Origin: an archaeon
GTDB lineage: Archaea; Aenigmatarchaeota; Aenigmatarchaeia; QMZP01; JAFGSV01
Assembly: GCA_028279705.1 (NCBI GenBank)
Contig: JANQNF010000078.1
Coordinates: forward strand, 1-64,000
DNA length: 64,000 bases
Direction of reading: 5' to 3'
The translations under genes were made by a program, and so were the position numbers. The notes under the pieces are model-generated. The model was not told the DNA's origin, did not search any database, and saw only the letters and a program-made list of their open reading frames with translations. Of the stretch, positions 1,214 through 47,667 are shown one piece after another. Numbering within the stretch: the first letter of the stretch is position 1; every line of letters begins with the position of its first letter.

Positions 1214-4200
1214 TCATACCACATCCACAAATATGCCGTTTTCACTATCCGATTTCTTTTCGTATACGTACACGGCGCCCTTGCCGTCATGCCTGATAAA
1301 GGCGTCACTCGCGCTGACGGCTTCACTGCCATCGATATCGAAAGCGTGGTGAATCATTAAATCCGAATACGTGACAAGGTCTTCCGTGGCTGCGGCCCAT
1401 ATACCGCCGGTAACACCTTGCGATGGATTATCTGGTCTCTGGAAAATCAGGTTTTCTCCGTCATAGTAGTGTAAGCCGTCGTAATCGGATACCGGGAAGT
1501 CCGGGAGCCTCACATGGGAAAACTGGCCATGCTTCAGGTTGTAGACGTAAGTCCCTCTCGTGCCTGCAACGAAGCCTTTCAGGCTCGACATGCCATAATT
1601 GTAGCTGTTGCAGTTGCCCATGTCCGCAACTTTCCTATATGAAGACGGTTCACCGTAAGGAACCGTGAAAACCCTGCCTGACATGGGCAGGCACCCGTAA
1701 GCGTTGAAGCACGGTGAGACCGCAAGGAAGTGAGTCGAGTTGAAGCTTCCGAGTCCCCACATGTCTATCTTTGGATAGCTCCCACATCCAGTGCTGATGT
1801 CAGGGACCGTCCCGACGAGCGACAGTCCTGAAGACTCGTTCCACGCGTATACAGAGTCCTTGACGAACATGTAGTAACGACCAGACAGTTCATCGAAATC
1901 AATCCCGTAAGGCAGCGGGTAGTTTTCATGGAACCCCTCGGCAAAACCTGAGAAGTCCGCTGGTATCACCGCTTTCACTTCCCAGCTTCCGTGGTCATCG
2001 ATGTCGTCAGAAAAGAAGAACTTGACTCCTCTCCATGACTGGAAGTCGTCATATGCCATCAGGGCGCAATCCGACAAGTCGTCACGGCACGATATCCTCG
2101 GTGAATAAATCATAGTTGAATTGAACAGGATGTAGCCTTCTTTGTATTCGTCCCCAGCAGACATTTCGATCGAATGCGGAATTCTGTCATAGCTGTCCCA
2201 CCCGGAGTCATTGTAGAAAGTGAAAAGAATATCGTCCTCATTTCTTGTCGGTGAAAACTCCATGGAAGCCTTTAATGTGTCGCCCGGCTTCCTTGTCCGG
2301 TTGAGTGCCATCGCGAATTCTCCGTCTGCGCCCGTGAAGGTAGTGGCCAGTAGGGCGCCACTCCTTTCATACGCAACTTTCATGAATTTCAGCGGCTCGC
2401 CGTCTGAATTGGCCACCGTCCCCTCAACCGTCCATAGGCCATCGAGTATATCACTGACAGTCTCGACTGTGTAGCCGTTATCACCCTTCTGTATCAAGTA
2501 CGTCTTGATAGCTTCACCAAGAGCACTACTAGTCACTTCAACGCTATCATGACTCATGTCATGCAGAAAATTCTGTCCGGTACCGAGCTTTCCGAGCAGC
2601 AATCTGGCAGCCGAAAGCGTCCCATCAAAGCCGAGCCCGTAGATCAGCACGAAGTTCCTCCCGTACGCAGAGGGTGCATCAGGCCACGCGGCATCTACCT
2701 GTTCTTGCGGTATGGGTCCCACTATACCGTCGAACGTCTCTCCGTAAGCTTTGCCGTCCAGTATTATGGCTTTCTGACCGTAGTCGTATCCCCAGTCCAC
2801 GACTTTTTCCGTGAGTTTGTCCGCCATTTCATTCGCCAAAGGTCCCCCGAGGATTATTGTGGTATCTGAATCCTCCAGTTTGTCTGCAACTTCATATCCA
2901 GACACAGTCAACATTCTTTCGACATAATCTTTCATCAGATTTTCCGGGGATTTATCATCCTGGACATCCACGTAGACGGAAAGCCCTCGAAACTTCTTTA
3001 CAGCATTGTTGTTCGTTTCGTCAGTTTCCTTTATGGCGTTGGAAGGGTCCAGCAGGACGTATACCTCATGGCCGGCTTCCACATCCCAGTCAAAACTGAC
3101 GACATTTTCCTCCCCGCTTTTCATGCTTCCCGTCTGGACGGTCGCGCTCTTTACGACACTTCCGTAGGCGACATCCTCAAATCTCAAAGCGACACTATCA
3201 ACTTCCGGGCCGTCGTTTTGCACAAGCACTTGAATTGAGACATTCCCTGAATTTCCTTTTCCAGAGAATTCCATACCGGAATCATCCACATTTAGGTCGG
3301 GTCTTTCGAGGTAAGCGAAGATGCCACCATCTTCCAGAGAAACCTTATGGAATATGTGCATCGCGTACCCCTTCCAGCCCCTGTGGACGCTCACAGATTC
3401 TATGGATTCATTTGAGGACTGTTCAAAAGCATAGTACGATTCAGGCTGACCATGGTAGTCAAGATCCAGCGTTTCCGTTTTGTATATACCTTCAGCTACA
3501 CCTGACGATTCATCTCCTATTAAGTAAAACAGAATATCTCCGTCGAGATAATAGTAAATGCCACCATAATCGGAAACAGGGAAATTTCTCAGGTCGTCAT
3601 GATAAGACTGACCTCCAGTTGTTGAATATTTTATCTTGTAGATGTAGTTGCCACCTTCGTTTCCGACGAATCCTTTGAGTGCAGAAAAGCCGTTGTAATT
3701 ATACCCTCCTGAACAATATCCTATGTCAGCCAAATGCGTTTTTGACGAGGGATCTGAAAAGGGTATGGCGTAAATCCTTGCCTCGTCCGGAAGATATCCA
3801 CTCCTGTAAAAGCAGTGACTCACTGCAAAGAAATGTGTGGAATTCATTTCATGAAGTCCCCAAACATCGATCCACTGCCCGCTACCGCTTTGTGGATCGT
3901 TAGGGATCTCACCAGTCATGGAAAGTCCAGAAGAAGGTGACCATTCGTATACCTTGTCCGTCATGAAAAGCCTGTACAGATGAGAGACCTGATCGTAAGT
4001 CACGCCGTACGGAAGGCGGTACCTGTCAAAGAAGCCTGTCACGTAAGAAGAGAAGTCCGCAGGAATCGTCTCCTCAATGACCACGTCACTCTGGAATCCG
4101 TCTGCAGTATGGATCAGTTTCAGCCCCCTGCCGATTGATACACTGTCCTCATAAACGAGAGCGAGACAATCCATGGATTCGTCGTCACATGCGACTTTCG

Positions 4201-4387
4201 GGTCAAACGGCTGCGAGGACGAACCGTTAGCCAGAGGGTATATTTTCTTCCCTAGACGAAACTCGTCCCCATCCAGAGCAGAAACGTTGACAGGAGCCAA
4301 CGACATGAATAAAACCATTGTCAGCGCAGTCAATAATACAACAGCATGTTCTTTTCCGGTGAAAAGAAACCCGCTAACAAATCCCAT
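1214..4387 (-). CDS. Large secreted surface protein with internal duplication, CARDB and carboxypeptidase-regulatory-like domains
   Basis: A 1057-residue exported protein with a hydrophobic signal segment at about residues 15-38. Residues about 45-360 and about 745-1057 are two diverged copies of one module. Both contain IPADFS, LPYG, a W-G-L stretch followed by NSTHF, SALKGF or SSLKGF, and FPVSDY; the module is probably beta-rich. Between them lie a CARDB-like adhesion domain (about 375-470, ending in a TDETNN motif), an alpha/beta segment with GGPLANEMADKL resembling S-layer-associated domains, and a carboxypeptidase-regulatory-like beta-sandwich (about 650-720). It is probably a cell-surface or S-layer-associated protein. 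Ligand and role are unknown. Confidence 0.7.
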   Translation of the reverse strand: MGFVSGFLFTGKEHAVVLLTALTMVLFMSLAPVNVSALDGDEFRLGKKIYPLANGSSSQPFDPKVACDDESMDCLALVYEDSVSIGRGLKLIHTADGFQSDVVIEETIPADFSSYVTGFFDRYRLPYGVTYDQVSHLYRLFMTDKVYEWSPSSGLSMTGEIPNDPQSGSGQWIDVWGLHEMNSTHFFAVSHCFYRSGYLPDEARIYAIPFSDPSSKTHLADIGYCSGGYNYNGFSALKGFVGNEGGNYIYKIKYSTTGGQSYHDDLRNFPVSDYGGIYYYLDGDILFYLIGDESSGVAEGIYKTETLDLDYHGQPESYYAFEQSSNESIESVSVHRGWKGYAMHIFHKVSLEDGGIFAYLERPDLNVDDSGMEFSGKGNSGNVSIQVLVQNDGPEVDSVALRFEDVAYGSVVKSATVQTGSMKSGEENVVSFDWDVEAGHEVYVLLDPSNAIKETDETNNNAVKKFRGLSVYVDVQDDKSPENLMKDYVERMLTVSGYEVADKLEDSDTTIILGGPLANEMADKLTEKVVDWGYDYGQKAIILDGKAYGETFDGIVGPIPQEQVDAAWPDAPSAYGRNFVLIYGLGFDGTLSAARLLLGKLGTGQNFLHDMSHDSVEVTSSALGEAIKTYLIQKGDNGYTVETVSDILDGLWTVEGTVANSDGEPLKFMKVAYERSGALLATTFTGADGEFAMALNRTRKPGDTLKASMEFSPTRNEDDILFTFYNDSGWDSYDRIPHSIEMSAGDEYKEGYILFNSTMIYSPRISCRDDLSDCALMAYDDFQSWRGVKFFFSDDIDDHGSWEVKAVIPADFSGFAEGFHENYPLPYGIDFDELSGRYYMFVKDSVYAWNESSGLSLVGTVPDISTGCGSYPKIDMWGLGSFNSTHFLAVSPCFNAYGCLPMSGRVFTVPYGEPSSYRKVADMGNCNSYNYGMSSLKGFVAGTRGTYVYNLKHGQFSHVRLPDFPVSDYDGLHYYDGENLIFQRPDNPSQGVTGGIWAAATEDLVTYSDLMIHHAFDIDGSEAVSASDAFIRHDGKGAVYVYEKKSDSENGIFVDVV

Positions 4388-4488
4388 GAACAGCTTTTGC
4401 CTGCTGGATTTATAATAATATGTTTAAACTCGCTAGTGAATGATTACGGGTCCTCCGAAACAAAATTAGTGTCAGTTTTAGATAGTTT

Positions 4489-38101: not shown

Positions 38102-38200
38102 TAAAGCATAAAGCGGTATCAATAAGGCATAGTAGTCCCGTCAGAATTAGTACCTTTTTTTGTCATAGACACGGTAAGTAGAATATCGTTAGATTTAATA
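38102..38200 (+). repeat. Degenerate copy of the tRNA-Gln-3'-end repeat (copy 4)
   Basis: Contains AAGCGGTATCAATAAGG, then AGTAGTCCCGTCAG and GGTAAGTAGAATATCG, which align with the repeat at 44693-44783 with many changes. It marks the left edge of the accessory island. Confidence 0.5.
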
Positions 38201-38221
38201 ATTTGACGCCAATTTAATTTT

Positions 38222-38854
38222 ATGTCACTTATTCACAAGATATCTGTTGGACAACCAATTCCCGTGGAGAAGAGAGACGGCTTACTGATACCACGGAAAC
38301 TCATAAGACCAGAATGTTATAATGTAATTCCCACGGATTCTGTAGCAGAATGGGCTGATTCACTTTTCAAGCCATATGACGACATCCGTTTTGATGCGAA
38401 CGATTTCGAGATGGCGGAGTCTGACGGTGGGGCACATACACATTTCACGGTGCATCTAAATCATGCAAAAAAGATTGAAGAATACATCATAAGTTACGGT
38501 ATCACAAAAGAGAAGTTTCATCTGATACCTGACGAACTGTTCGATTATGCTTCTATCGAAGATCTGTTTGAGGTAGTGGAAACTTTACTCTATTATTCTG
38601 CTCAAAGTGAGGCGATTTTTCACCGACACAAAAGAGGCCTTGCTGATGATCATTTGGTGTGTTATGAATCTCGCCTAGTGAGTGATACAGAACATGGTGT
38701 GAGGCACCTGAAAAATTTCCCCTATCGCCTTGACTTGTCCGTCTATTTATCCAAGGACCCAAATGCATATTTGAAATACAAGCTAAGCGACGAAAACCTC
38801 AAAGGCGATTTTTTCGTTCAGCTACTGCTTGACAGTGGACCCGGAAAGAATTAG
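38222..38854 (+). CDS. Uncharacterised island protein
   Basis: 210 residues, soluble. It is acidic in the middle (DDIRFDANDFEMAESDGG) with several histidines (HTHFTVHLNHAKK, FHRHKRG). No domain recognised. It lies between two tRNA-Gln-derived repeats, so it is a single-gene cassette of the island. A plausible A/T-rich promoter precedes the ATG. Confidence 0.5.
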   Translation: MSLIHKISVGQPIPVEKRDGLLIPRKLIRPECYNVIPTDSVAEWADSLFKPYDDIRFDANDFEMAESDGGAHTHFTVHLNHAKKIEEYIISYGITKEKFHLIPDELFDYASIEDLFEVVETLLYYSAQSEAIFHRHKRGLADDHLVCYESRLVSDTEHGVRHLKNFPYRLDLSVYLSKDPNAYLKYKLSDENLKGDFFVQLLLDSGPGKN

Positions 38855-38894
38855 CAGGTGAATTTCAATACATTGTCATAATGCAGGGATTTGT

Positions 38895-39030
38895 TTGTAG
38901 CCTCCGCGCCAAAACCAAAAAACGATATCAATAGTGCCCAGATAGCCCCGCCAGGGTTTGAACGTTTTTGGTTATAGCCCCGGTAAGAGAATTATCGTAA
39001 GATATTATAAAGAAAGCGGTAGGGGCAGTG
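38895..39030 (+). repeat. tRNA-Gln-3'-end repeat, copy 3
   Basis: About 136 bp. It contains ATAGCCCCGCCAGGGTTTGA, matching the 3' end of tRNA-Gln with two changes, and the flank AACGATATCAATAGTGC that also follows the real tRNA. The non-tRNA part TTATCGTAAGATATTATAAA and AGAAAGCGGTA is also present. On the minus strand CCGGGG can pair with CCCTGG, and TTTATAA lies upstream of the tRNA part. Confidence 0.75.
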
Positions 39031-39044
39031 CATTATTTAGCATT

Positions 39045-39410
39045 TCAGGATGCAATTGCCGGACTTGGATTTGTGATTCTCGGGACTGTGAGATTTACGG
39101 GAATCTGCTTTTCTTCCTTCATTACAAGCATTATTTTGATTACCAAGAAATTGTTAATCATTTTTGATTCCACCTGACATGACAAAAGATTTGCAAGAGC
39201 ACTTTTGCTAACTTTATATCCGGAAATCAGTGCTGAAAGATATTTTGTTGCATTCATGATTTCTATTCCGGAAAGAGACTTTTTACTATCGAAATCGAAA
39301 ACTATGTCTCCGAGTTCGACGCTTGCGGTCGATTTCCTTTTACCGCTGTAAATAAACAGATCGTTGTTCTCTTTATCGTAATCGAATTTAAACTCTTGCA
39401 TATTTTTCAA
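39045..39410 (-). CDS. DUF2283 protein, probable antitoxin
   Basis: 121 residues. Residues 5-65 are DUF2283 (YDKENNDLFIYSGKR, VELGDIVFDFD, LSGIEIMNATKYL). It overlaps the start of its partner: the DUF4258 gene lies upstream on the same strand and ends 23 bases inside this gene. This family commonly sits next to DUF4258 in toxin-antitoxin-like pairs. The C-terminal extension after about residue 85 is not typical and runs toward the repeat at 39030. Confidence 0.7.
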   Translation of the reverse strand: MKNMQEFKFDYDKENNDLFIYSGKRKSTASVELGDIVFDFDSKKSLSGIEIMNATKYLSALISGYKVSKSALANLLSCQVESKMINNFLVIKIMLVMKEEKQIPVNLTVPRITNPSPAIAS

Positions 39411-39717
39411 CTCTCCTTTGCCATCTTCTGTTGATTTTTATCACTGTGCATATTATAATTTTCTTGTTAAGTATTAAAACATACCTATGGCACAAATTTC
39501 CGCTGTATATGAAGTAGCAATCAAATTTCTCCTCGCTAGTCCTGTCCGCTTTCTGCCTAATTACAGTGGCTAATTTGCCTGGATTCATTATATTGTCGAC
39601 AATCTCTTCAAGGTCAATACCTCTTTGAATAGCACGTATCCTTGCGTGTGTTGTAAATACAATTTGCTCACGTGAATAACCCTTCAGTTTTCCTTTCACT
39701 TCATCTACCAAGCTCAT
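39388..39717 (-). CDS. DUF4258 protein, probable RelE/BrnT-like toxin
   Basis: 109 residues with the DUF4258 signature: FTTHARIRAIQRGI near residue 21, then CYFIYSGNLCHRYVLIL and a basic C-terminus (KINRRWQRRVEKYARV). Members resemble RelE-fold mRNA interferases. Paired with DUF2283 by gene overlap. A ribosome binding site is weak; the promoter is probably the A/T stretch at 39720-39750. Confidence 0.7.
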   Translation of the reverse strand: MSLVDEVKGKLKGYSREQIVFTTHARIRAIQRGIDLEEIVDNIMNPGKLATVIRQKADRTSEEKFDCYFIYSGNLCHRYVLILNKKIIICTVIKINRRWQRRVEKYARV

Positions 39718-39754
39718 AAGATTATTTCGTCACGTGTTTTATAATGTTATTTTT

Positions 39755-40123
39755 TCATTTTTCAATACAAAATTCGATAAGATTATCAGGACTCGATATG
39801 TTTTTAATGAGTACATTTGCTGACATTTCTTCAATCTCATGAGATGATATTATTATTTTATTCCTAGCATATGCGTAAGCTATCTCCATTGCAACGGTCT
39901 TTCCAACGTAACCGTCTTTTGAGAAAACATACACAATATCAAATTCATCAATCTTCTTGAAAGCATTTAACAAAGCATTCTTTTCACTTTCCGGGGTGTC
40001 TTCTTGTCCTTTATTCCATTTTCCAGCAGCTGCCACCTTGATATTTTTATTTTCTAATTTCTGAACTAGGTTCTCAATTTCAATATAGAACTTCCTACTC
40101 CCAGCAATAAAGACTGATTTCAT
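39755..40123 (-). CDS. Nucleoside 2-deoxyribosyltransferase-like protein
   Basis: 122 residues of a Rossmann-like fold: MKSVFIAGSRKF at the start, FDIVYVFSKDGYVGKTVAMEIAYAYARNK in the second half, resembling the nucleoside 2-deoxyribosyltransferase/DUF4406 group. The catalytic glutamate may be in VAMEIAYA. In accessory regions this fold also appears in defence or NAD-linked systems, but no such role can be shown. It is in the same cassette as the toxin-antitoxin pair. Confidence 0.5.
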   Translation of the reverse strand: MKSVFIAGSRKFYIEIENLVQKLENKNIKVAAAGKWNKGQEDTPESEKNALLNAFKKIDEFDIVYVFSKDGYVGKTVAMEIAYAYARNKIIISSHEIEEMSANVLIKNISSPDNLIEFCIEK

Positions 40124-40162
40124 GTTGTCTTATTTATTCTAAGTTTTTATATTTCCAGAAAA

Positions 40163-40294
40163 ATTTATAGCCCTCACAAAAAGGCAAAAAACGATATCAA
40201 GCGTGCTTGGATAGCCCCCGCCAGGTTCATACCTTTTTGGTTATAGCCCTGGTAAGTAGATTATCGTAAGGTTTTAAGAAGGAAGCGGTAGCAT
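40163..40294 (+). repeat. tRNA-Gln-3'-end repeat, copy 2
   Basis: About 132 bp with AACGATATCAAGCGTGCTTG, then ATAGCCCCCGCCAGGTTCAT (tRNA-Gln 3' end with an extra C and changes), GGTTATAGCCCTGGTAAGTA and AAGGAAGCGGTAGCATG. The left part, including TATAGCCCTCACAAAAAGGC, matches the real flank of tRNA-Gln at 47517-47560. Confidence 0.75.
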
Positions 40295-40396
40295 GTGACA
40301 TTAATCTACTCTAAATCTAACTATTTTTTGTAAATTTCTAAAATAGTTATAACTATTTTATTAATATTTAAATAATAGTTAAGCTATTAGATAATT

Positions 40397-41593
40397 ATGA
40401 AAAGAAAACTGTACAAAAAACTCGTTGAAGAAAAGGACTCGAAGAAGATTTCAATAATTATTGGACCAAGACAGGTAGGTAAAACAACACTTCTAAAGCA
40501 GTTACATAAAGAACTTGGTGGTATGTACGTTGATTTCGATATTCTTGAAAACGTGGAAAAATTCGATACTTATTCGAAGTTCATTAGCACATTGGAACTT
40601 GAAGGGTATGATGAGAAAAAATGGTTTTATCTATTCATTGACGAGTTTCAAAAATACACAGATCTCACAAAGATATTGAAAAACGTATATGATAATCATC
40701 CAAACATCAAGATATATGCAACAGGTTCGTCATCAATAACCATAAAAAATAAAATCCAGGAATCTCTTGCCGGAAGAAAATTCATGCATAATTTATATCC
40801 ATTGGATTTTGAAGAATTCCTACAATTCAAGGGGATAAATGCAGAAAAGATGAAAAGATTGGCCGGTTTTAAGGGAGTACTGCCAATAGCAGAATACAAA
40901 AAAGATATCGAAGATTATATGCGATTTGGCGGTTATCCGGAAGTCGTTTTATCAAAAAACAAAAAAGAGATTTTAGCGAGTATTTTTGACACTTTCATAA
41001 AAAAAGATTTGGTCGACTATCTGAACATAAAGGAAATACTCGGAGTAAAAAAGCTGATACAATATCTAGCAATAAACAACGGTGGAAAATTGAATATTAA
41101 AGACATATCCCAGCAGCTAAATCTGAAAAGAGAGCAAATAGAGAACTATCTTGAAGTACTGGAAGAAACATTCATTTTGAAAAGAATAATCCCTTTTTTC
41201 ACAAACAAGAATAAAGAGATAGTGAAGGCGTATAAAGAGTATTTTATAGATCCAGGAGTCAGGAATTATTTCTGTAACAATTTCAATGAGATGAGCAAAA
41301 GAAATGATACTGGATTCTTATTCGAAACGTTTATCTTGGGGGAAATATTAAAGAGCTCCGCATACGAGATAAAATTCTGGCAGGACAAGCAAAATCACGA
41401 AGTTGACTTCATAGTCGACAAAGTAAACGAACAGATAGGAATTGAAGTTAAATTCAAGGAAAAACTAAAATCTGAAGACTACAAGGGATTAAAGCACATA
41501 AAAGGTAAAGTGAAGAGCTGCCTTATCGTCAATTTGATGCAACAAGATAAAAAACACATATTACCTTTTTCTATAAAAAATGCATTAGAGTAA
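40397..41593 (+). CDS. AAA+ ATPase with DUF4143 C-terminal domain
   Basis: 398 residues. Walker A GPRQVGKT is at 23-30, Walker B LFIDEFQKY at about 82-90, and sensor-like ATGSSS at about 112-117. The C-terminal DUF4143 region contains GFLFETFILGEIL, FWQDKQNHEVDFIVDK and GIEVKFKEK, which looks like an endonuclease-fold remnant (E-D-ExK pattern). Such ATPases are common in archaeal accessory DNA, with unproven roles in DNA transactions or defence. The gene is A/T-rich compared with the neighbours, suggesting transfer. Confidence 0.8.
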   Translation: MKRKLYKKLVEEKDSKKISIIIGPRQVGKTTLLKQLHKELGGMYVDFDILENVEKFDTYSKFISTLELEGYDEKKWFYLFIDEFQKYTDLTKILKNVYDNHPNIKIYATGSSSITIKNKIQESLAGRKFMHNLYPLDFEEFLQFKGINAEKMKRLAGFKGVLPIAEYKKDIEDYMRFGGYPEVVLSKNKKEILASIFDTFIKKDLVDYLNIKEILGVKKLIQYLAINNGGKLNIKDISQQLNLKREQIENYLEVLEETFILKRIIPFFTNKNKEIVKAYKEYFIDPGVRNYFCNNFNEMSKRNDTGFLFETFILGEILKSSAYEIKFWQDKQNHEVDFIVDKVNEQIGIEVKFKEKLKSEDYKGLKHIKGKVKSCLIVNLMQQDKKHILPFSIKNALE

Positions 41594-41622
41594 GATTATA
41601 TAAAGAAAGCGGTAGCATGAGA
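41594..41622 (+). repeat. Partial tRNA-Gln-3'-end repeat (copy 5, right end only)
   Basis: TTATATAAAGAAAGCGGTAG directly after the ATPase stop matches the right end of copies 1-3. The tRNA part is missing. Confidence 0.45.
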
Positions 41623-41651
41623 ATTAACGTAACCATATGTATTCACGGTAT

Positions 41652-44627
41652 CTATTTTTTCAACTTAAAATGTCGGATTTTAAGTATTAATAAAAAAGCC
41701 GCCATGAATATGAATGCTACAAAGGTAATATACAACACGGCATTGTAATCAATGATGTCATCTTCATCGCCTTTTTCAATTCCCGTTATGATGTCCAGTG
41801 CATTCTGTGACAGGTTCCGTGCTAGCAGGAAATTGCCTTCTTCGAATGCTATATTTGCATCTCCCAGTAATCTTCTTGCCTCTTCAAGAGCCACATTACC
41901 ACTTTCGTCAGAATTTTCAAGCAGGCCTTCGACGTAATCGATGAACTCCTTTGTCTCGTTTAATGAACCATCATCTTTTTCAGCGTGTACGCAGGCATTG
42001 TCGATGCATGTCTGATTTTCCAAGCATTGGGTTTTGCTACAACATTCGTATTGTACACACGAATGATTGCTGATAGTACCGCAAATGCATATTATTTCAA
42101 TGCACTCACCCTCCATGCACTGAGAGGATGTGTTACAGTCATCATCCGTCACGCATCCGGGCACTGCAGCAGCCGAAGTGCTGGAACTTCGCGTACTGCT
42201 GCCCCCGTTGTTGTCCTGCGTAACTGCGCCTGTCACGAGTGCTATTGGAAGGCTGTCGATGTTGCCTTCACCAATGCTGTATGGAGAATCGCATATGCCA
42301 TTACTGTTTGCGTCTTCACACCCTTCAGAAGGCTGGTCATATGACTTCCACCGGTTGCCGACAGAGCCGTTGTCCCAGGTTATCACGATGTCCAGCTCTA
42401 CTAAGTCTCTGCTCGTGAAGACGTTATCAAACACAGTCACATTCGTGGCGTTCCCGTCAATAAAGAACTCTTCATTGGTTATACCTGAAAAAGAATTTCC
42501 CGCGACAACAGTTCCTGTGGAGTTCTGTATCATTATACCGTTTTCGCATCCATCCACGGTATTGCCGGTTGCGTTACTGTAATCCGCATATACGAAATTG
42601 ACACCAGCTTGGCAGGATTCAATGGTATTGCCCGCTATCAGGTTCATTGTGGAGTTTGGGTCAAGACGAATGGCCTCCGAAGGAGTGTCCAAAATGTAAT
42701 TGTCCTCGATGACATTGCAACTGGAATTGTCAATATTTATTCCCTGGTTATCTGTACCGTTTATGACGTTTCCTCGAATGGTATTGTTGTGAGTATCCGG
42801 GCTGAGCTTTATGCCGGTATATGTGTTGTTGTTCACTATGTTGTTGATGAAGTAGTTGTGATGCGCGCCGTTTTCAATTTCCATCCCATGATCCATGTTA
42901 CCGGCAGCGGTATTATTGATGAACCAGTTGTAAGCGGAAGTGTTCTCTATAGGTATAAATCCCGCCAGGTAGTTGTCAAACGCGGTGTTGCCCCTCACAG
43001 TATTGTTGGAGGAGCCATGGGACATGACTATGCCATGACCCGTACTGCTGTTGAAGACATTACAGTTTTCAACAGTTCCGAAACTGGAATTGAAATAGTA
43101 AATGCCGGCAGGTCCGAACCTGTACACGTTGCAGTTTCTGACAGTGATATTATCGACATCATACGCGTTTATGCCATCATTGGTATCGTTACCGGTTATG
43201 TTGAAGCCCTTACAGTCTAGCGTCACGTTGTGTCCGTCTATCTGTATTCCCACTCCGGTGCAGTTGAGATTCTGGTTGAGCGCCGTACTGTTCGTTATGG
43301 TCTGTCCACAGGATCCAAGAAACTGGAGTAACTGGAAATTCAGGGCCGCGTTTTCAGTCATATTAATTGTCTGTGTCTCATTGGAAAACGCAGGCTTTGA
43401 CACGTTTATCGTGTGCGGCGTTGAGTATATCCTCATAGTCGCATTCTGCCAGTATTCCACGAGCTCAAATCTCACCGATCCGCTGCTATCTGTTAACTGG
43501 GAACCCGAAGCGTCGCCTTCGTCGTTGTATACGGAGACGTTAGCTCCACTGGATAGAGAATTGTCCGGGTCCCTTACAGTGACATCAGCGTACCACTGCA
43601 GGATGACAGTCCCGGTGAACGGGCTTTCGAATTCTATTTCGTCAACATCGAATGTCACATTAAGAAAAATATTATTTTCCCCAGCATCATCAAGGACCAC
43701 ATCATTAAAATCAGGAACGTTGAAAACGCTGTCCCTTATCACGTTTTCGTAAGACTCGTGGGATATCTCAAGTCCTATGTTATCATTTAGTGCTGTCACA
43801 ATATTGTCTGAAAAAGTGTTGTTCGTCGCGACCTCGGCAACTTCGAGAGCCGGGCTATCAGAACCCAGAAGGGTTACAATGTTTCCGGCTATTACGTTGT
43901 GGGATGAATTATAAACTATGTGTATCCCCCCACCGCTATAATGAACAGTCACGTTGTTGTAATCGAAGTGGTTCCAGAACGAGCTCGGTGAGTCTATGCC
44001 GTCGCAATCGTCGCCGTAAACCGTTATGGTGTTGTAGCTTATGTTATTGTAATAAGAAAGTGACGGGAAAATGCCGAATGAGCTGTTACCATAAGTGGTG
44101 ACTGCGTTGTATGCGACGAGGCTGCTGTTAATCCCGGGATTGAAGCCTATTGCATGGGACTGGTTGCCCCATGTCGTGACGGTGTTATTGGTTATGCTGG
44201 CGTTTACAGCGCTCACGATCTGTATCCCGTCTCCGTAATCCAGAGAACCATGCGTAGAGATGTTTATCGTGTTGTTCATTATCACGATATTGTAAGTGAC
44301 ACTATAGTCCACCTTTCCTATACCAGTGTAAAAATCATATATCATGCAGTTCTTCACCGTGATGTTGTCGACCTCAGTTATGTTGACTGCATAACCGGAA
44401 TGATTTCCTGTGAGATTGTATCCAGCACAGTCAAGTGTTATATTATCCGCTGTGATGGAAAAGCAGGTCCCGTTGACATTCACACTCTTGTTGAGAGAAT
44501 AGTAAGTGTCAGCTGAAGACAGCACCTGGCACGAATCGGTTTCAAGCGAATGGGCGGAAGGAAGGCATGTGATAAAAAGCGCTACGGTGAGCAAAAGAAA
44601 GAAACAGACGGGATGGACAGTGCCCAT
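41652..44627 (-). CDS. NosD-like parallel beta-helix surface protein
   Basis: 991 residues. A signal peptide (about 1-27) is followed by two blocks of right-handed beta-helix repeats (about 35-330 and 435-770) with many N-x-I/V-x-x-N turns such as NNITVKNC and GNTIESCQAGVNF. A short beta-sandwich lies between the blocks (about 345-420). A cysteine-rich segment (about 832-890) comes after, then a coiled-coil-like region and a C-terminal membrane helix (about 960-982) with a basic end. A surface-anchored protein, perhaps binding or cleaving glycans. Located between repeat copies 5 and 1 of the island. Confidence 0.8.
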   Translation of the reverse strand: MGTVHPVCFFLLLTVALFITCLPSAHSLETDSCQVLSSADTYYSLNKSVNVNGTCFSITADNITLDCAGYNLTGNHSGYAVNITEVDNITVKNCMIYDFYTGIGKVDYSVTYNIVIMNNTINISTHGSLDYGDGIQIVSAVNASITNNTVTTWGNQSHAIGFNPGINSSLVAYNAVTTYGNSSFGIFPSLSYYNNISYNTITVYGDDCDGIDSPSSFWNHFDYNNVTVHYSGGGIHIVYNSSHNVIAGNIVTLLGSDSPALEVAEVATNNTFSDNIVTALNDNIGLEISHESYENVIRDSVFNVPDFNDVVLDDAGENNIFLNVTFDVDEIEFESPFTGTVILQWYADVTVRDPDNSLSSGANVSVYNDEGDASGSQLTDSSGSVRFELVEYWQNATMRIYSTPHTINVSKPAFSNETQTINMTENAALNFQLLQFLGSCGQTITNSTALNQNLNCTGVGIQIDGHNVTLDCKGFNITGNDTNDGINAYDVDNITVRNCNVYRFGPAGIYYFNSSFGTVENCNVFNSSTGHGIVMSHGSSNNTVRGNTAFDNYLAGFIPIENTSAYNWFINNTAAGNMDHGMEIENGAHHNYFINNIVNNNTYTGIKLSPDTHNNTIRGNVINGTDNQGINIDNSSCNVIEDNYILDTPSEAIRLDPNSTMNLIAGNTIESCQAGVNFVYADYSNATGNTVDGCENGIMIQNSTGTVVAGNSFSGITNEEFFIDGNATNVTVFDNVFTSRDLVELDIVITWDNGSVGNRWKSYDQPSEGCEDANSNGICDSPYSIGEGNIDSLPIALVTGAVTQDNNGGSSTRSSSTSAAAVPGCVTDDDCNTSSQCMEGECIEIICICGTISNHSCVQYECCSKTQCLENQTCIDNACVHAEKDDGSLNETKEFIDYVEGLLENSDESGNVALEEARRLLGDANIAFEEGNFLLARNLSQNALDIITGIEKGDEDDIIDYNAVLYITFVAFIFMAAFLLILKIRHFKLKK

Positions 44628-44692
44628 ACATAATATTCATGGAAGTCAACTAAAATAGTATGTTTAAACTTGCCGATTTGTTTTTCATTGCA

Positions 44693-44783
44693 GTAATAGC
44701 CCCGCCAGGGTTTGAACGTTTTTGGTTATAGCCCTGGTAAGTAGATTATCGTAAGTTTTTATAAAGAAAGCGGTATCAAGAGT
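44693..44783 (+). repeat. tRNA-Gln-3'-end repeat, copy 1
   Basis: ATAGCCCCGCCAGGGTTTGA matches the 3' end of tRNA-Gln. GGTTATAGCCCTGGTAAGTA, GATTATCGTAAG, TATAAAGAAAGCGGTATCAA and GAGTGC follow. On the minus strand CCAGGG and CCCTGG form a 6-bp stem around a loop ending TTCAAA, so the copy resembles a T-arm with a 16-nt insert plus the acceptor 3' strand. A TATA-like TTTATAAAAAC lies about 35 bases upstream of that stem. Confidence 0.75.
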
Positions 44784-44804
44784 GCAAATTTTCTGTTAAA
44801 AATG

Positions 44805-46223
44805 CTATTTTCTTTCTATCTTAACCTTAATCGACGGCGACAGTTCTCCTATCACTTCAACCGTCCTCTTACGGATCTTGTATGTATCTCCCTGCATTGC
44901 ATATCCCATCCAGCTCTGAAAGCTTTTTGTTATATCCTCAAAAGAAATCTCACCTCTTTCATATCTGGATTTCAAAACGGAAAGTCGCTTTTCCATCTTC
45001 CTGATATTGGATTTCCTTGGGATCTTGTAGTGATAGAAAATTCTGAAGCCGAGAAACCTTACACCATTGCACAAAGAATAAACATTTGATTTTTCAGGAT
45101 GTAGGTCAAGTTTAAGCGATTTACCGAGAAATCCTGTAATTTTAGTCTTATAATCACGCAGCATTTCTTCAGAATTGCCGAGAATGACAAAATCATCCAC
45201 ATATCTTATGTAATTACTTGCCTTCAGTTTATGCTTCACGAAATGGTCAAGATCGTTGAGATAAAGGTTTGCAAAGAATTGGCTCGTGAGGTTTCCTATG
45301 GGCATACCCTTTCCTTTATGCTTTGTTGTATGATTCTCAAGTATTAATCTTATCAGGCGGATAACTTTTCTGTCGGATATCTTTCTTTTTATTATACTTA
45401 TCAGATTATCGTGGTCGATTGTATCGAAGTAGTGCCTGATGTCTGCCTTCAGAATGTAACCTATCACCATGTTCCCGTCTTTTGCATGGTTCAATGTTCT
45501 TCCGTTATGTGTAACCTTCCTCTTGAAACCATCATATCTCTCAAGTGCTTTACTGGAGCCTTTCTTCAGCCTATTTGCATAGGAATCGTGTATGAAAGAC
45601 TTTTCAAAGACGGGCTGTATTATGTTGCATACAGCATGGTGGACGACCCTGTCCCTGAAATCAGAAGCTGAGATGAGCCGTGTCTTTGGGTCTCTTATGA
45701 CGAAACGCTTGAGAGGGGAAGGTATGTAAGAAAAGAACCGAAGCTCGCTGCCAAGCTGAAGCAGATTACTTTCAAGGTTAAGCTCGAACTTCTGGACATC
45801 CTTCCTGTTTCTCTTGTTCCTTCTTGCTTTTCTGAATGCAAGCTCCAGATTTCTGAAAGAACATAATTCATCATACAAACTTGTGCAGTCCATCGCCAGA
45901 ATCCCCCCCCCCCAATCTGCAATTATCTGGGAAATTTCATTCAATAAAGAACTTGCATGCTCGTATCTTTTGAAGCTAAGATAAGAAAGGTCCTTACAAA
46001 TCCTGAAAAGGATCTGAAGTTTGTGTATCTCATTTGATATCTTACGCCTGTTTGTTTCTGTCTTCCTCTTTTCAAAATCTATGACAAGCTCGAGAATCCT
46101 TATTGATGTCACTTCTATCCTCTGGGAAAGAATAAGCCTCTGACTCCTCGGGAATCTGTTTACAGTCGGGTATACCCATTTAACCAAGTCATAGGTTTTC
46201 TGGAACAGATGATTGTACGACAT
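44805..46223 (-). CDS. Avd-reverse transcriptase fusion of a diversity-generating retroelement
   Basis: 472 residues. Residues 1-105 are an accessory variability determinant (Avd) four-helix protein: LFQKTYDLVKWVYPTVNRFP, SQRIEVTSIRILELVI, ILFRICKDLSYLSFKRYEHA. From Met111 the DGR-type reverse transcriptase begins: LYDELCSFRNLELAFRKAR, FVIRDPKTRLISASDFRDR, MPIGNLTSQFFANLYL (the DGR form of motif 4) and the catalytic YVDD. Avd and RT are normally separate. Here they are joined in frame by an 11-G run at 45903-45913 (residues 104-107). One G fewer gives a long wrong tail on Avd; one more ends Avd within about 12 codons, leaving RT to its own ATG at 45893. Confidence 0.93.
   Translation of the reverse strand: MSYNHLFQKTYDLVKWVYPTVNRFPRSQRLILSQRIEVTSIRILELVIDFEKRKTETNRRKISNEIHKLQILFRICKDLSYLSFKRYEHASSLLNEISQIIADWGGGILAMDCTSLYDELCSFRNLELAFRKARRNKRNRKDVQKFELNLESNLLQLGSELRFFSYIPSPLKRFVIRDPKTRLISASDFRDRVVHHAVCNIIQPVFEKSFIHDSYANRLKKGSSKALERYDGFKRKVTHNGRTLNHAKDGNMVIGYILKADIRHYFDTIDHDNLISIIKRKISDRKVIRLIRLILENHTTKHKGKGMPIGNLTSQFFANLYLNDLDHFVKHKLKASNYIRYVDDFVILGNSEEMLRDYKTKITGFLGKSLKLDLHPEKSNVYSLCNGVRFLGFRIFYHYKIPRKSNIRKMEKRLSVLKSRYERGEISFEDITKSFQSWMGYAMQGDTYKIRKRTVEVIGELSPSIKVKIERK
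45903..45913 (-). repeat. G11 homopolymer at the Avd-RT junction
   Basis: Eleven consecutive G on the coding strand. Slippage or miscount by one base would separate or fuse the two proteins. It is a possible phase-variation tract or an assembly artefact. Confidence 0.8.
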
Positions 46224-46257
46224 AGTGAATCCTGAATTCCCGGACAGCCTGAACTAT

Positions 46258-46387
46258 TCACAGGCAACGAACCGATATTCGAGTTCAGGCCAAATTCTGT
46301 TTTGGTTTCCTGTTGTCAGGCTCGTTGTTGGCGTTAACGTTGAAACGTCCGTTGTCATCGTTGTTGTACCAACGGTCAACGGAAGCC
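46258..46387 (-). repeat. DGR template repeat (TR)
   Basis: 130 bp, aligned with the variable repeat at 46737-46843. Outside a 23-nt insertion (46284-46306) the two differ at 17 positions; 16 are A in the TR (coding strand) and changed in the VR, and one is C to T. The first 21 bases on the plus side (46258-46278) are identical. The TR reads through a YNNDDNG- and NVNANN-type AAC-rich stretch, as usual for templates. The insertion contains the hairpin CCAAA-TTCTGT-TTTGG. It lies between the target gene and Avd-RT, with the RT start 35 bases away. Confidence 0.92.
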
Positions 46388-46605
46388 AACTTATAGCTCC
46401 GCTGCCAAATGGGCATTTGCCCGCACCACAGCTTCAGCATCGCTGTCGCTGTTGAATTTCATGGTGCACTTCTGCACGCTACAGCGGAGCGTGTAGTTCA
46501 AGCATGCTCCAGGCGTATCCTTGGATAACGCCTGCACTGATGCACAGCTGTCCGGGACAGCTAACCCCTAATAAAGGGGATAAGAAAATTAGTACAAGAA
46601 GAAAT
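46388..46605 (-). ncRNA. Structured non-coding region upstream of the TR
   Basis: 218 bases without a credible reading frame but with several strong hairpins: the perfect palindrome AGCTGTCC-G-GGACAGCT at 46544-46560, GGCGTATCC-TT-GGATAACGCC, CTACA-CGCTCCGC-TGTAG and CCCCT-AATA-AAGGGG. Position between target gene and TR suggests a structured leader of the TR RNA, possibly used for priming or Avd-RT binding (inference; in the Bordetella phage DGR the known structured part is on the other side of the TR). Confidence 0.45.
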
Positions 46606-47475
46606 TTATCCTTTGAGTGCGTTTTCAACTGCTTTTAATCTTTCAGCGGCAGCTTCAAAGCCTCTGTATTCATCCACTGTTATTACCTTGATGCCCCTAT
46701 CCTCAGGGCTTGCCTCGCTCCGCTCGGCTGTCCTACTCACAGGCAACGAACCGATATACAAGTTCCAGAAGCCAGGCCCGTCGTCGGCGCTAACGTTGAA
46801 ACGACCGCCGCCATCGTCGTTGCACCAACGGCCAACGGAAGCCGTTCCTTGACCTTCTTCCCTGCTCCAGAATCTTGACACGGCCTTTCTTGCAAATTCG
46901 GGATCAAATCCTCTTTTAGTCCATGACTTCTCAGCTTCTTTTCTTGTGCTTACTGTAGAGAACGGTGTTCCTGTGTCAGGCCTGTATGGGCCGTCTACTG
47001 TGAGTTCTACGTATCCTGTCTCCGGAATAGTGATGTAGCGGATGTTGGAATTCTCGCCGAGTTTCGCAGACCATCTATTTTCTCCTTTCTCAAAACCCTC
47101 AGGTCTGATAATCCATCTGACTGACCTGTCTGTGTCCTTGACTTTCTTTAGACCTTTTTGACCACCGTCATAGTCACAGGCATCGTCTGTCACGTTTCCG
47201 TATCCGATTTTGTCAAAAAGCATGTAAACGGTATCTTTTACGTCCTCTGGCATCTCGGGTGCCTCACCGAGTTCAGAAGCAAGATACCAGTTGAAGAGTG
47301 CTGCCTGCTCACCCAGTGTTATTGAGCCTTTGTGAAGCTCACGAAACTCTTTACCATAGCTTCCAATCTGGTCTGCAACTTCGCCGTCGAAACTGAATGG
47401 CATTATCCTATTAAGATCTCCTGCACCGTAAACTTTCAGCTTAGGTACATGTATCACGGAATTTCCTTGAGTCAT
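46606..47475 (-). CDS. DGR target protein with C-type-lectin-like variable domain
   Basis: 289 residues, no signal peptide. Residues about 190-247 have the C-type-lectin-like DGR fold: AVSRFWSREEGQG, GRWCNDDGGGRFNVSADDG, PGFWNLYIGSLPVS. The variable repeat covers about 211-247. Residues that differ from the template are 215, 218, 220, 222, 223, 229, 231-233, 235-237 and one or two more. The N-terminal 185 residues are of unknown family. A tail of about 40 residues follows the VR (SRTAERSEASPEDRG onward), whereas in many targets the VR ends the protein. It probably displays a changing binding surface; partner and location are unknown. Confidence 0.9.
   Translation of the reverse strand: MTQGNSVIHVPKLKVYGAGDLNRIMPFSFDGEVADQIGSYGKEFRELHKGSITLGEQAALFNWYLASELGEAPEMPEDVKDTVYMLFDKIGYGNVTDDACDYDGGQKGLKKVKDTDRSVRWIIRPEGFEKGENRWSAKLGENSNIRYITIPETGYVELTVDGPYRPDTGTPFSTVSTRKEAEKSWTKRGFDPEFARKAVSRFWSREEGQGTASVGRWCNDDGGGRFNVSADDGPGFWNLYIGSLPVSRTAERSEASPEDRGIKVITVDEYRGFEAAAERLKAVENALKG
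46737..46843 (-). repeat. DGR variable repeat (VR)
   Basis: 107 bp inside the target gene, the recipient of adenine-mutagenised cDNA. Nearly all differences from the TR fall at TR adenines: twelve A-to-G and four A-to-T changes, plus one C-to-T. It lacks the 23-nt insertion of the TR, so it was written before that insertion arose or by another template. Confidence 0.92.
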
Positions 47476-47516
47476 TGTTAGAATATGATGGAAAGTTTTT
47501 TAAAGAGTGATGTAGT

Positions 47517-47563
47517 TATAGCCCTCCCAAAAAAGGCCAAAACCGATAGAAAGCGTGCTTAGA
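47517..47563 (+). repeat. tRNA-Gln downstream flank shared with island repeats
   Basis: TATAGCCCTCCCAAAAAAGG, then ACCGATAGAAAGCGTGCTTA, matches the left parts of repeat copies 2 and 3 (for example ACGATATCAAGCGTGCTTGG). The homology therefore extends at least 45 bases beyond the tRNA itself. Confidence 0.65.
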
Positions 47564-47667
47564 TAGCCCCGCCAGGATTCGAATTCCCAGCGAAAGACCT
47601 TACAGTCAACCGCTCCTGGGTCTGCGGTTCCAGAGACCGCTATCCTTGACCACTAGACTACGGGGCT
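47564..47667 (-). tRNA. tRNA-Gln(CTG) with a T-arm intron
   Basis: Acceptor AGCCCCG/CGGGGCT, discriminator A, no CCA. A box TAGTCTAGTGG. Anticodon arm GCGGT-CTCTGGA-ACCGC (anticodon CTG). The T-stem CCAGG/CCTGG and loop TTCGAAT are separated by 31 extra bases (47584-47614) at position 53/54; removing them gives 73 nt. The 20-nt 3' exon and downstream flank are repeated through the island to its left, so this gene is the likely integration target. Confidence 0.85.

Follow-up and report, generated by a model that had tools for sequence, protein, structure and literature searches.

A diversity-generating retroelement of an aenigmatarchaeon with a putatively spliced template repeat and a candidate poly-G switch in its mutator gene

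Introduction

How does an archaeal cell operate a hypermutation system whose template is longer than the copy it produces and whose mutator gene contains a long run of a single base? This question is raised by a stretch of DNA of 64,000 nucleotides from an aenigmatarchaeon (contig JANQNF010000078.1 of assembly GCA_028279705.1; hereafter the window), which carries a diversity-generating retroelement (DGR). As already described in an earlier note on this DNA, a target gene containing a variable repeat (VR), a template repeat (TR), and a gene for an Avd domain and a reverse transcriptase (RT) lie in the same direction at this locus; all of them are encoded on the minus strand, as are the other features listed in Table 1 unless stated otherwise. 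From the comparison of genome sequences, we propose that the TR RNA is probably spliced before retrohoming and that the tract of G residues at the Avd/RT junction fits a phase-variable switch.

Results

The TR and the VR differ by 17 substitutions, exactly the number given in the earlier note for positions 46258-46387, and 16 of these lie at adenines of the TR strand (11 A to G and 5 A to T changes; Fisher p ~1e-9). Over the entire aligned stretch, 17 of 20 substitutions fall on A, a base that occupies 33 of the 116 positions (Fisher p ~8e-9). Both counts support the earlier reading of this pattern as the fingerprint of adenine-specific mutagenic retrohoming. Combined with a DGR-type RT, an Avd domain, and the GNLTSQ motif, they also uphold the assignment of the element to the DGRs. 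The host is likewise confirmed as an archaeon: its genome contains an archaea-specific editing domain of threonyl-tRNA synthetase, and related RTs as well as a genome of the same order stem from Ca. Aenigmatarchaeota. Judged from its sequence, the DGR is complete. It probably is working or was so recently, and the sequence that it varies is the C-terminal region of the target protein encoded next to it.

With a length of 130 nt, the TR holds 23 nt that are absent from the VR (107 nt). This TR-only segment fits the bulge-helix-bulge (BHB) motif of archaeal introns, with a central helix of 4 bp (CAGG/CCTG), two bulges of 3 nt (AAA and AAC), and an inner stem. The predicted cuts lie between the second and the third nucleotide of each bulge (2↓1; arrows denote cuts or junctions throughout), and excision at these positions removes exactly the 23 nt. 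The resulting junction, CAGGAA-CTCG, differs from the corresponding VR sequence, CTGGAA-CTTG, by one change at an A and one C to T change. The BHB core is part of the structure of lowest energy that RNAfold predicts for this piece of the TR (z -2.75).

Relatives from two archaeal classes likewise have DGRs with TR-only segments, which measure 15-58 nt and number up to three per TR, and we found no long VR-only segments in the same TR/VR comparisons. For segments with clean flanks, we enumerated every placement that the VR permits, allowing an A of the TR to match any base, and scored the pairing of the 4 bases preceding the 5' bulge with the 4 bases preceding the 3' bulge. A perfect 4/4 helix was present in 18 of the 27 segments of a first set, and 26 of them had a score of at least 3/4; after shifts of the 3' strand by 1-8 nt, 0-5 perfect helices were left, and randomly placed segments gave 2.1 on average and never more than 8 (2000 trials). 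One member of this set (L103, 31 nt) probably lies outside the TR and stems from a faulty alignment. A second set of 25 segments, which came mostly from new loci including the second archaeal class and re-used three segments, contained 17 perfect helices versus 0-3 after slides of up to 5 nt. Among the 45 distinct segments, 25 different central helices were found, and the first two pairs of the inner stem, which had not been used for placement, were formed in 38 (16.6 expected; maximum 25 in 2000 shuffles). Homologous segments retain CAGG-AAA/CCTG-AAC, and their stems covary (CCAAA/TTTGG, TCAGAT/ATCTGA, and TTAAGCAA/TTTGCTTGA); further covariation at homologous sites is seen in CACG/CGTG versus CGTG/CGCG. 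The first base of the putative intron is an A in 40 of the 45 segments.

A positive control for this geometry is located only 1.2 kb upstream of the TR, where the intron of a tRNA-Gln gene possesses the same arrangement (CCCA/TGGG, GG↓A, AA↓T). Spliced in silico, this tRNA-Gln shows 5 differences from the intron-less tRNA-Gln of a sister genus (G004), and genes for the splicing endonuclease (PF01974) are present at two places in the host genome (G000:C3 and G000:C35). As a second type of control, we passed seven phage DGRs, including those of BPP-1 and ANMV-1, through a strict alignment filter; their TRs and VRs align in ungapped blocks of 115-149 nt, and six of the seven possess no clean internal TR-only segment under this filter. 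Because the BHB geometry is found at the exact offset, a tRNA-Gln intron lies nearby, and the splicing endonuclease is encoded in the genome, splicing of the template RNA, in the manner of an archaeal tRNA, probably precedes retrohoming. The TR transcript would fold into a bulge-helix-bulge hairpin, from which the tRNA-splicing endonuclease of the host would excise the 23 nt, and a ligase would join the ends. The cDNA would then be made from the spliced RNA, and the copy passed on to the VR would lack the intron. The DNA of the TR would thereby differ from its own cDNA, and this by-product might, speculatively, spare the TR from being overwritten; the 3' ends of the TR and the VR are otherwise identical over 21 nt.

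The second unusual feature of the locus is the run of 11 G residues at the junction of Avd and RT. Runs of at least 9 G are rare, with about 112 of them in 156 genomes and none in three genomes of the same genus that lack a DGR. Yet every DGR found to have Avd next to RT in the taxonomic order to which the window belongs (the window, L045, L046, L047, L048, and L052) possesses G9-G11 at the junction. Junction tracts are also present in L105 and L121; in L050, the tract follows an Avd gene without an RT, and the contig of L054 starts with G11. In the more distant families L111, L118, and L120, Avd adjoins RT and no tract is found. The window and L052 have Avd and RT in one frame. A conserved tail (G-L-x-K/R-F-V/I) closes Avd in L045, L046, L105, and L121, where the RT begins with an ATG directly after the tract; L047 and L048 represent the third frame, so that all three reading phases are found at the junction. 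The fused Avd-RT of the earlier note holds for the window, but the fusion hinges on the present length of the G tract, which breaks the frame in most relatives.

G tracts are found at other positions of DGRs as well. Other DGRs of the Aenigmatarchaeia that lack an adjacent Avd possess a tract between the stop codon of the target gene and the RNA (L049 with G13, L053, L112, L113, L114, and L119), and in L109 and L116, also from Aenigmatarchaeia, it lies inside the RT. In the second archaeal class, such an RT is present in 107 of 378 genomes; tracts of up to G27 reside inside the RT, mostly at residues 298-304 directly before GMPLGNLTSQ, and (GA)7-13 replaces poly-G at the same RT loop. A run of 27 G was observed within an RT gene at L217:2317-2343, in the loop before NLTSQ. 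The tracts inside RTs occupy four sites (residues ~245, 298-304, 350-362, and 422), each of which forms a loop in the Avd-RT protein of the window as modelled by AlphaFold. Scans of whole genomes, for which approximate genome sizes were used, indicate an enrichment of coding-strand runs of at least 9 G, with 18 such runs versus ~0.05 expected in the DGRs of the window's class and 17 versus ~0.09 expected inside the RTs of the second class.

The enrichment of the tracts and the mixture of frames fit the signature of phase variation. The poly-G at the junction would serve as a slippage switch whose length sets the relation of Avd to RT, giving rise either to a fusion (the present G11), to an Avd with its ancestral tail and an RT translated from its own ATG, or to the third frame. 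The G or GA tracts inside the RT loops of relatives would act as on/off switches of the RT itself.

Outside these positions, the remaining poly-G runs of the host genome (C12 and C35 of G000) are not located at DGR parts and were dismissed. Many runs of at least 9 G lie away from DGRs in G029 (11 runs) and in G328, G389, and G364 (6 each); these genomes may hold further phase-variable genes. The locus L050 (positions 2663-4435) consists of a target, a TR, an Avd gene, and a G9 tract with no RT after it; RTs are encoded on other contigs of that genome, and these may drive the DGR in trans.

Alternative explanations

The TR-only segments could arise without RNA splicing if the RT of the DGR jumps over these hairpins during cDNA synthesis, an explanation that we consider improbable. 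It is in keeping with the hairpin nature of the segments and with their lengths, which are divisible by three in 21 of 26 and 12 of 16 cases, far above chance; one DGR RT has been suggested to slip by multiples of three (PMC12875486). However, jumping predicts junctions at the base of the hairpin or at direct repeats, whereas the observed 4-bp helix with 3-nt bulges and 2↓1 cuts is the signature of the endonuclease (18 of 27 and 17 of 25 segments), the junctions often lack microhomology (e.g., GG↓A...AT↓A), and such segments are largely missing from phage DGRs. An old insertion into the TR or deletion from the VR, with no mechanism behind it, would look alike at a single locus, and the 23 nt of the window are not a multiple of three. 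We give this possibility hardly any credence, as the difference is one-sided in many DGRs, occurs up to three times per TR, and comes with BHB geometry, while homologous segments at the site ACGTCA↓A vary in length from 30 to 58 nt without any effect on the VR; the control with the slid strand strongly disfavours it. Several points nevertheless weigh against splicing. The placement of the gaps is ambiguous by up to 11 positions since an A of the TR matches any VR base, an ambiguity addressed by the slid controls, and introns at the same site share descent, so that the counts are not independent. Under the same strict filter, phage ACA1 possesses one TR-only segment of 20 nt. The exon-exon outer helix of the window motif comprises only 3 bp beyond a 3x3 internal loop, and the modelled motif is a relaxed BHB with a weak exon-exon helix; relaxed BHB motifs are cut by some archaeal endonucleases (PMC12397907). 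Finally, divisibility by three is not needed by splicing alone; at some loci (e.g., L053), the TR shares one open reading frame with the RT, which may keep the segment in frame.

The G tracts, in turn, might not be phase-variable at all and instead represent ribosome-binding sites for the start of the RT, or sites of transcription slippage or frameshifting that always provide some RT. A run of G is able to base-pair with the CCUCC of 16S rRNA, an ATG or GTG closely follows the tract at Avd/RT junctions, and slippage at the RNA level gives the same mixture of frames; transcription slippage would thus fit the tract data too. We nonetheless regard this explanation as unlikely, though one to be taken seriously. 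An uninterrupted G9-G11 is not required of a ribosome-binding site, the explanation accounts neither for the tracts that lie within RT loops or separate the target from the RNA nor for the (GA)n tracts at the same loops, and no single programmed shift fits the occurrence of all three frame relations; a role of poly-G solely as ribosome-binding site was rejected because tracts are also found inside RTs. That the tracts and the TR-only segments are artefacts of sequencing or assembly is very hard to believe. Most if not all of the genomes are metagenome assemblies, homopolymers are error-prone, and the contig of L054 starts exactly at its G tract; but the same sites recur in independent assemblies of different lineages, always on the coding strand and several times in frame, and sequencing errors cannot create the TR/BHB geometry. 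Of the loci with tracts inside the RT, 9 have an open and 22 a broken RT frame, both halves being conserved; this is compatible with a share of one third and speaks for phase variation. Two points count against it. The on/off ratio derives from a partly selected sample, as the loci were in part chosen for having a run or a split RT. Furthermore, homopolymer lengths in metagenome assemblies may be off by one, which would blur the on and off states. Taken as a whole, the account of a DGR with a spliced TR, a G-tract switch, and a location in a tRNA-anchored cassette appears likely to us.

Genes and genomic setting of the DGR

By sequence, the best solved relative of the RT is that of the DGR of Bordetella phage BPP-1 (8ub7, E 2.8e-47), and a chain of the BPP-1 DGR ribonucleoprotein (8ub7) ranked first in a Foldseek search with the predicted fold of the Avd-RT protein. 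The GNLTSQ motif of the RT conforms to the GxxxSQ motif of DGRs, and an RT match was also obtained in PHROG. The RVT_1 and bAvd domains scored above the Pfam thresholds (57.8 bits for bAvd, with a cut-off of 40), while the match to DivGenRetAVD (E 5.6e-22, 78 bits) fell slightly under the cut-off of 80; in PHROG, the Avd domain matched the 'Avd protein of DGR'. The AlphaFold model of the protein has a predicted local distance difference test (pLDDT) score of 86.7, with values below 50 for residues 106-114. An ATG at 45893-45891 is a candidate internal start codon of the RT. A search of IMG/VR matched only distant RTs.

The structured region of the earlier note corresponds to the RT-16 RNA family of Rfam (60.1 bits; threshold 50), which is also present in the DGRs L045, L046, and L047. 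Homologues of the target gene occur in the same three loci. The target protein has no match in Pfam, NCBIfam, PHROG, or PDB, and the C-type-lectin-like fold that had been suggested for it was not confirmed, as its AlphaFold model reached a pLDDT of only 38.8 and a PDB profile search returned nothing. The AERSEA sequence encoded directly after the VR is conserved in L045 and L047; a DNA hairpin at this position was considered and rejected, since DNA folding gave no stable fold.

The view of the locus as a repeat-bounded island also stands, given that the 3' end of the tRNA-Gln gene is repeated at 44696-44716. Positions 38130-47583 of the window form a tandem array of small cassettes with common end repeats, anchored at tRNA-Gln, and the end copies at 38.1, 38.9, and 40.2 kb mark off further cassettes, which contain a DUF4258/DUF2283 pair, an AAA_14-DUF4143 ATPase, and a NosD-like surface protein. 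No integrase or recombinase is encoded in the array; seven tyrosine recombinase matches were found elsewhere in the genome, none of them tied to the array. Six of these seven are located on G000:C44, perhaps a mobile-element-rich replicon. The sister genus (G004) possesses a single cassette at its tRNA-Gln (L061:3855-4666), with 87% identity to the window's DUF4258/DUF2283 cassette; the DGR of this genus lies elsewhere. The end repeat was not found among the other 59 related genomes searched. The DGR is one cassette in this recombinase-less, tRNA-anchored array, whose cassettes are presumably mobile.

Table 1. Positions of the DGR and of its flanking features in the window.
Feature	Position	Strand	Remarks
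DGR cassette, right end repeat (copy of the tRNA 3' end and ~60 bp more)	44686-44790	+	further copies at 38942-39021 (92.5%), 40211-40293 (87%), and 38130-38201 (75%)
Avd-RT open reading frame, 472 aa	44805-46223	-	Avd four-helix bundle, residues 1-104; RT, residues 115-453
G11 homopolymer at the Avd/RT junction	45903-45913	-	encodes the start of a disordered linker (residues 106-114)
TR	46258-46387	-	last 21 nt (46258-46278) identical to the VR end, resembling an initiation of mutagenic homing (IMH) site
TR-only segment of 23 nt, predicted BHB-type intron	46284-46306	-	CAGG-AA↓A-CCAAA-ACAGAA-TTTGG-CCTG-AA↓C
RT-16 structured RNA, Rfam RF03019	46388-46536	-	immediately precedes the TR
DGR target gene, 289 aa	46606-47475	-	VR near the C-terminal end, followed by a tail of ~50 aa
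GCCGAGCGGAGCGAGGC, possible trinucleotide-loop hairpin	46712-46728	-	directly after the VR; encodes AERSEA
VR	46737-46843	-	from alignment to the TR
DGR cassette, left end repeat (3' end of the tRNA with flank)	47538-47583	-	further copies at 40165-40234 and 38918-38962
tRNA-Gln(CUG) gene	47564-47667	-	anchors the island; 31-nt BHB intron in the T-arm at 47584-47614

Discussion

The DGR of the window shares with that of BPP-1 (bRT-Avd-TR/VR; 8ub7 and others) homologous RT and Avd proteins, the A-specific transfer, and a nearly invariant end of the VR. In BPP-1, however, the TR and the VR align ungapped (136-nt block), and no G tract is found in avd-brt. The structured RNA of BPP-1 lies 3' of the TR, whereas RT-16 lies 5' of it here; moreover, Avd is fused to the RT in the window. 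The classic test for an RNA intermediate in BPP-1 reportedly placed an artificial intron in the TR, and the archaea studied here seem to do naturally what was done in that test.

As the earlier note had pointed out, DGRs as a class are not new to DPANN archaea. According to the accessible parts of the published reports, the DGRs of Nanoarchaeota DUSEL4 and of Woesearchaeota, along with AvpA, likewise are archaeal and cellular, have orphan targets, and possess a VR followed by a tail; TR introns, a G-tract switch, or a tRNA-anchored cassette are not described in these parts (PMC4372165; PMC5006420). The BHB introns of archaeal tRNAs, rRNAs, and rare mRNAs (cbf5 and the 5' untranslated region of HVO_1309; PMC7714728) have the same 4-bp helix and two 3-nt bulges, and the endonuclease is encoded in the genome considered here, but the RNA hosting the putative intron is the template of a retroelement in our case. 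Only the cbf5 and HVO_1309 mRNAs are named as substrates of mRNA splicing in archaea (PMC7714728). A literature search that covered few subscription papers revealed no report linking DGRs to BHB splicing.

Phase variation by homopolymeric tracts in Neisseria, Campylobacter, and Bordetella relies on frame-critical poly-G/C tracts of ~9-12 residues or on dinucleotide tracts, with about one third of the alleles in frame (PMC1891110). The tracts described here are alike in these respects; they differ in that they occur in archaea and in that the gene to be switched codes for a hypermutation enzyme and not for a surface protein. Within the same limits of coverage, our literature search found no report of a phase-variable tract in an archaeal hypermutation enzyme. 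Template splicing and a G-tract switch are thus two layers of control that we did not find described for DGRs in a literature search that was partial. We consider it reasonably probable that DPANN archaea run spliced and phase-switched DGRs, in which the template passes through the tRNA-splicing endonuclease of the host (with up to three BHB introns per TR), the mutator is switched on, off, or into fusion with Avd as G or GA tracts change in length through slippage, and hypermutation becomes a contingency trait.

If this holds true, these DGRs would represent natural retroelements that rely on the tRNA-intron pathway to splice their template, and they would extend its substrates well beyond the two mRNA introns named so far (PMC7714728). 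The intron-less VR would be a genomic record of the RNA intermediate, and tRNA splicing would be tied to targeted hypermutation, which would offer an explanation for a possible escape of the TR from overwriting. DGR searches that require an ungapped TR/VR alignment or an intact RT may then miss archaeal DGRs or label them as broken. The G-tract switch would point to bet-hedging of a mutator in archaea.

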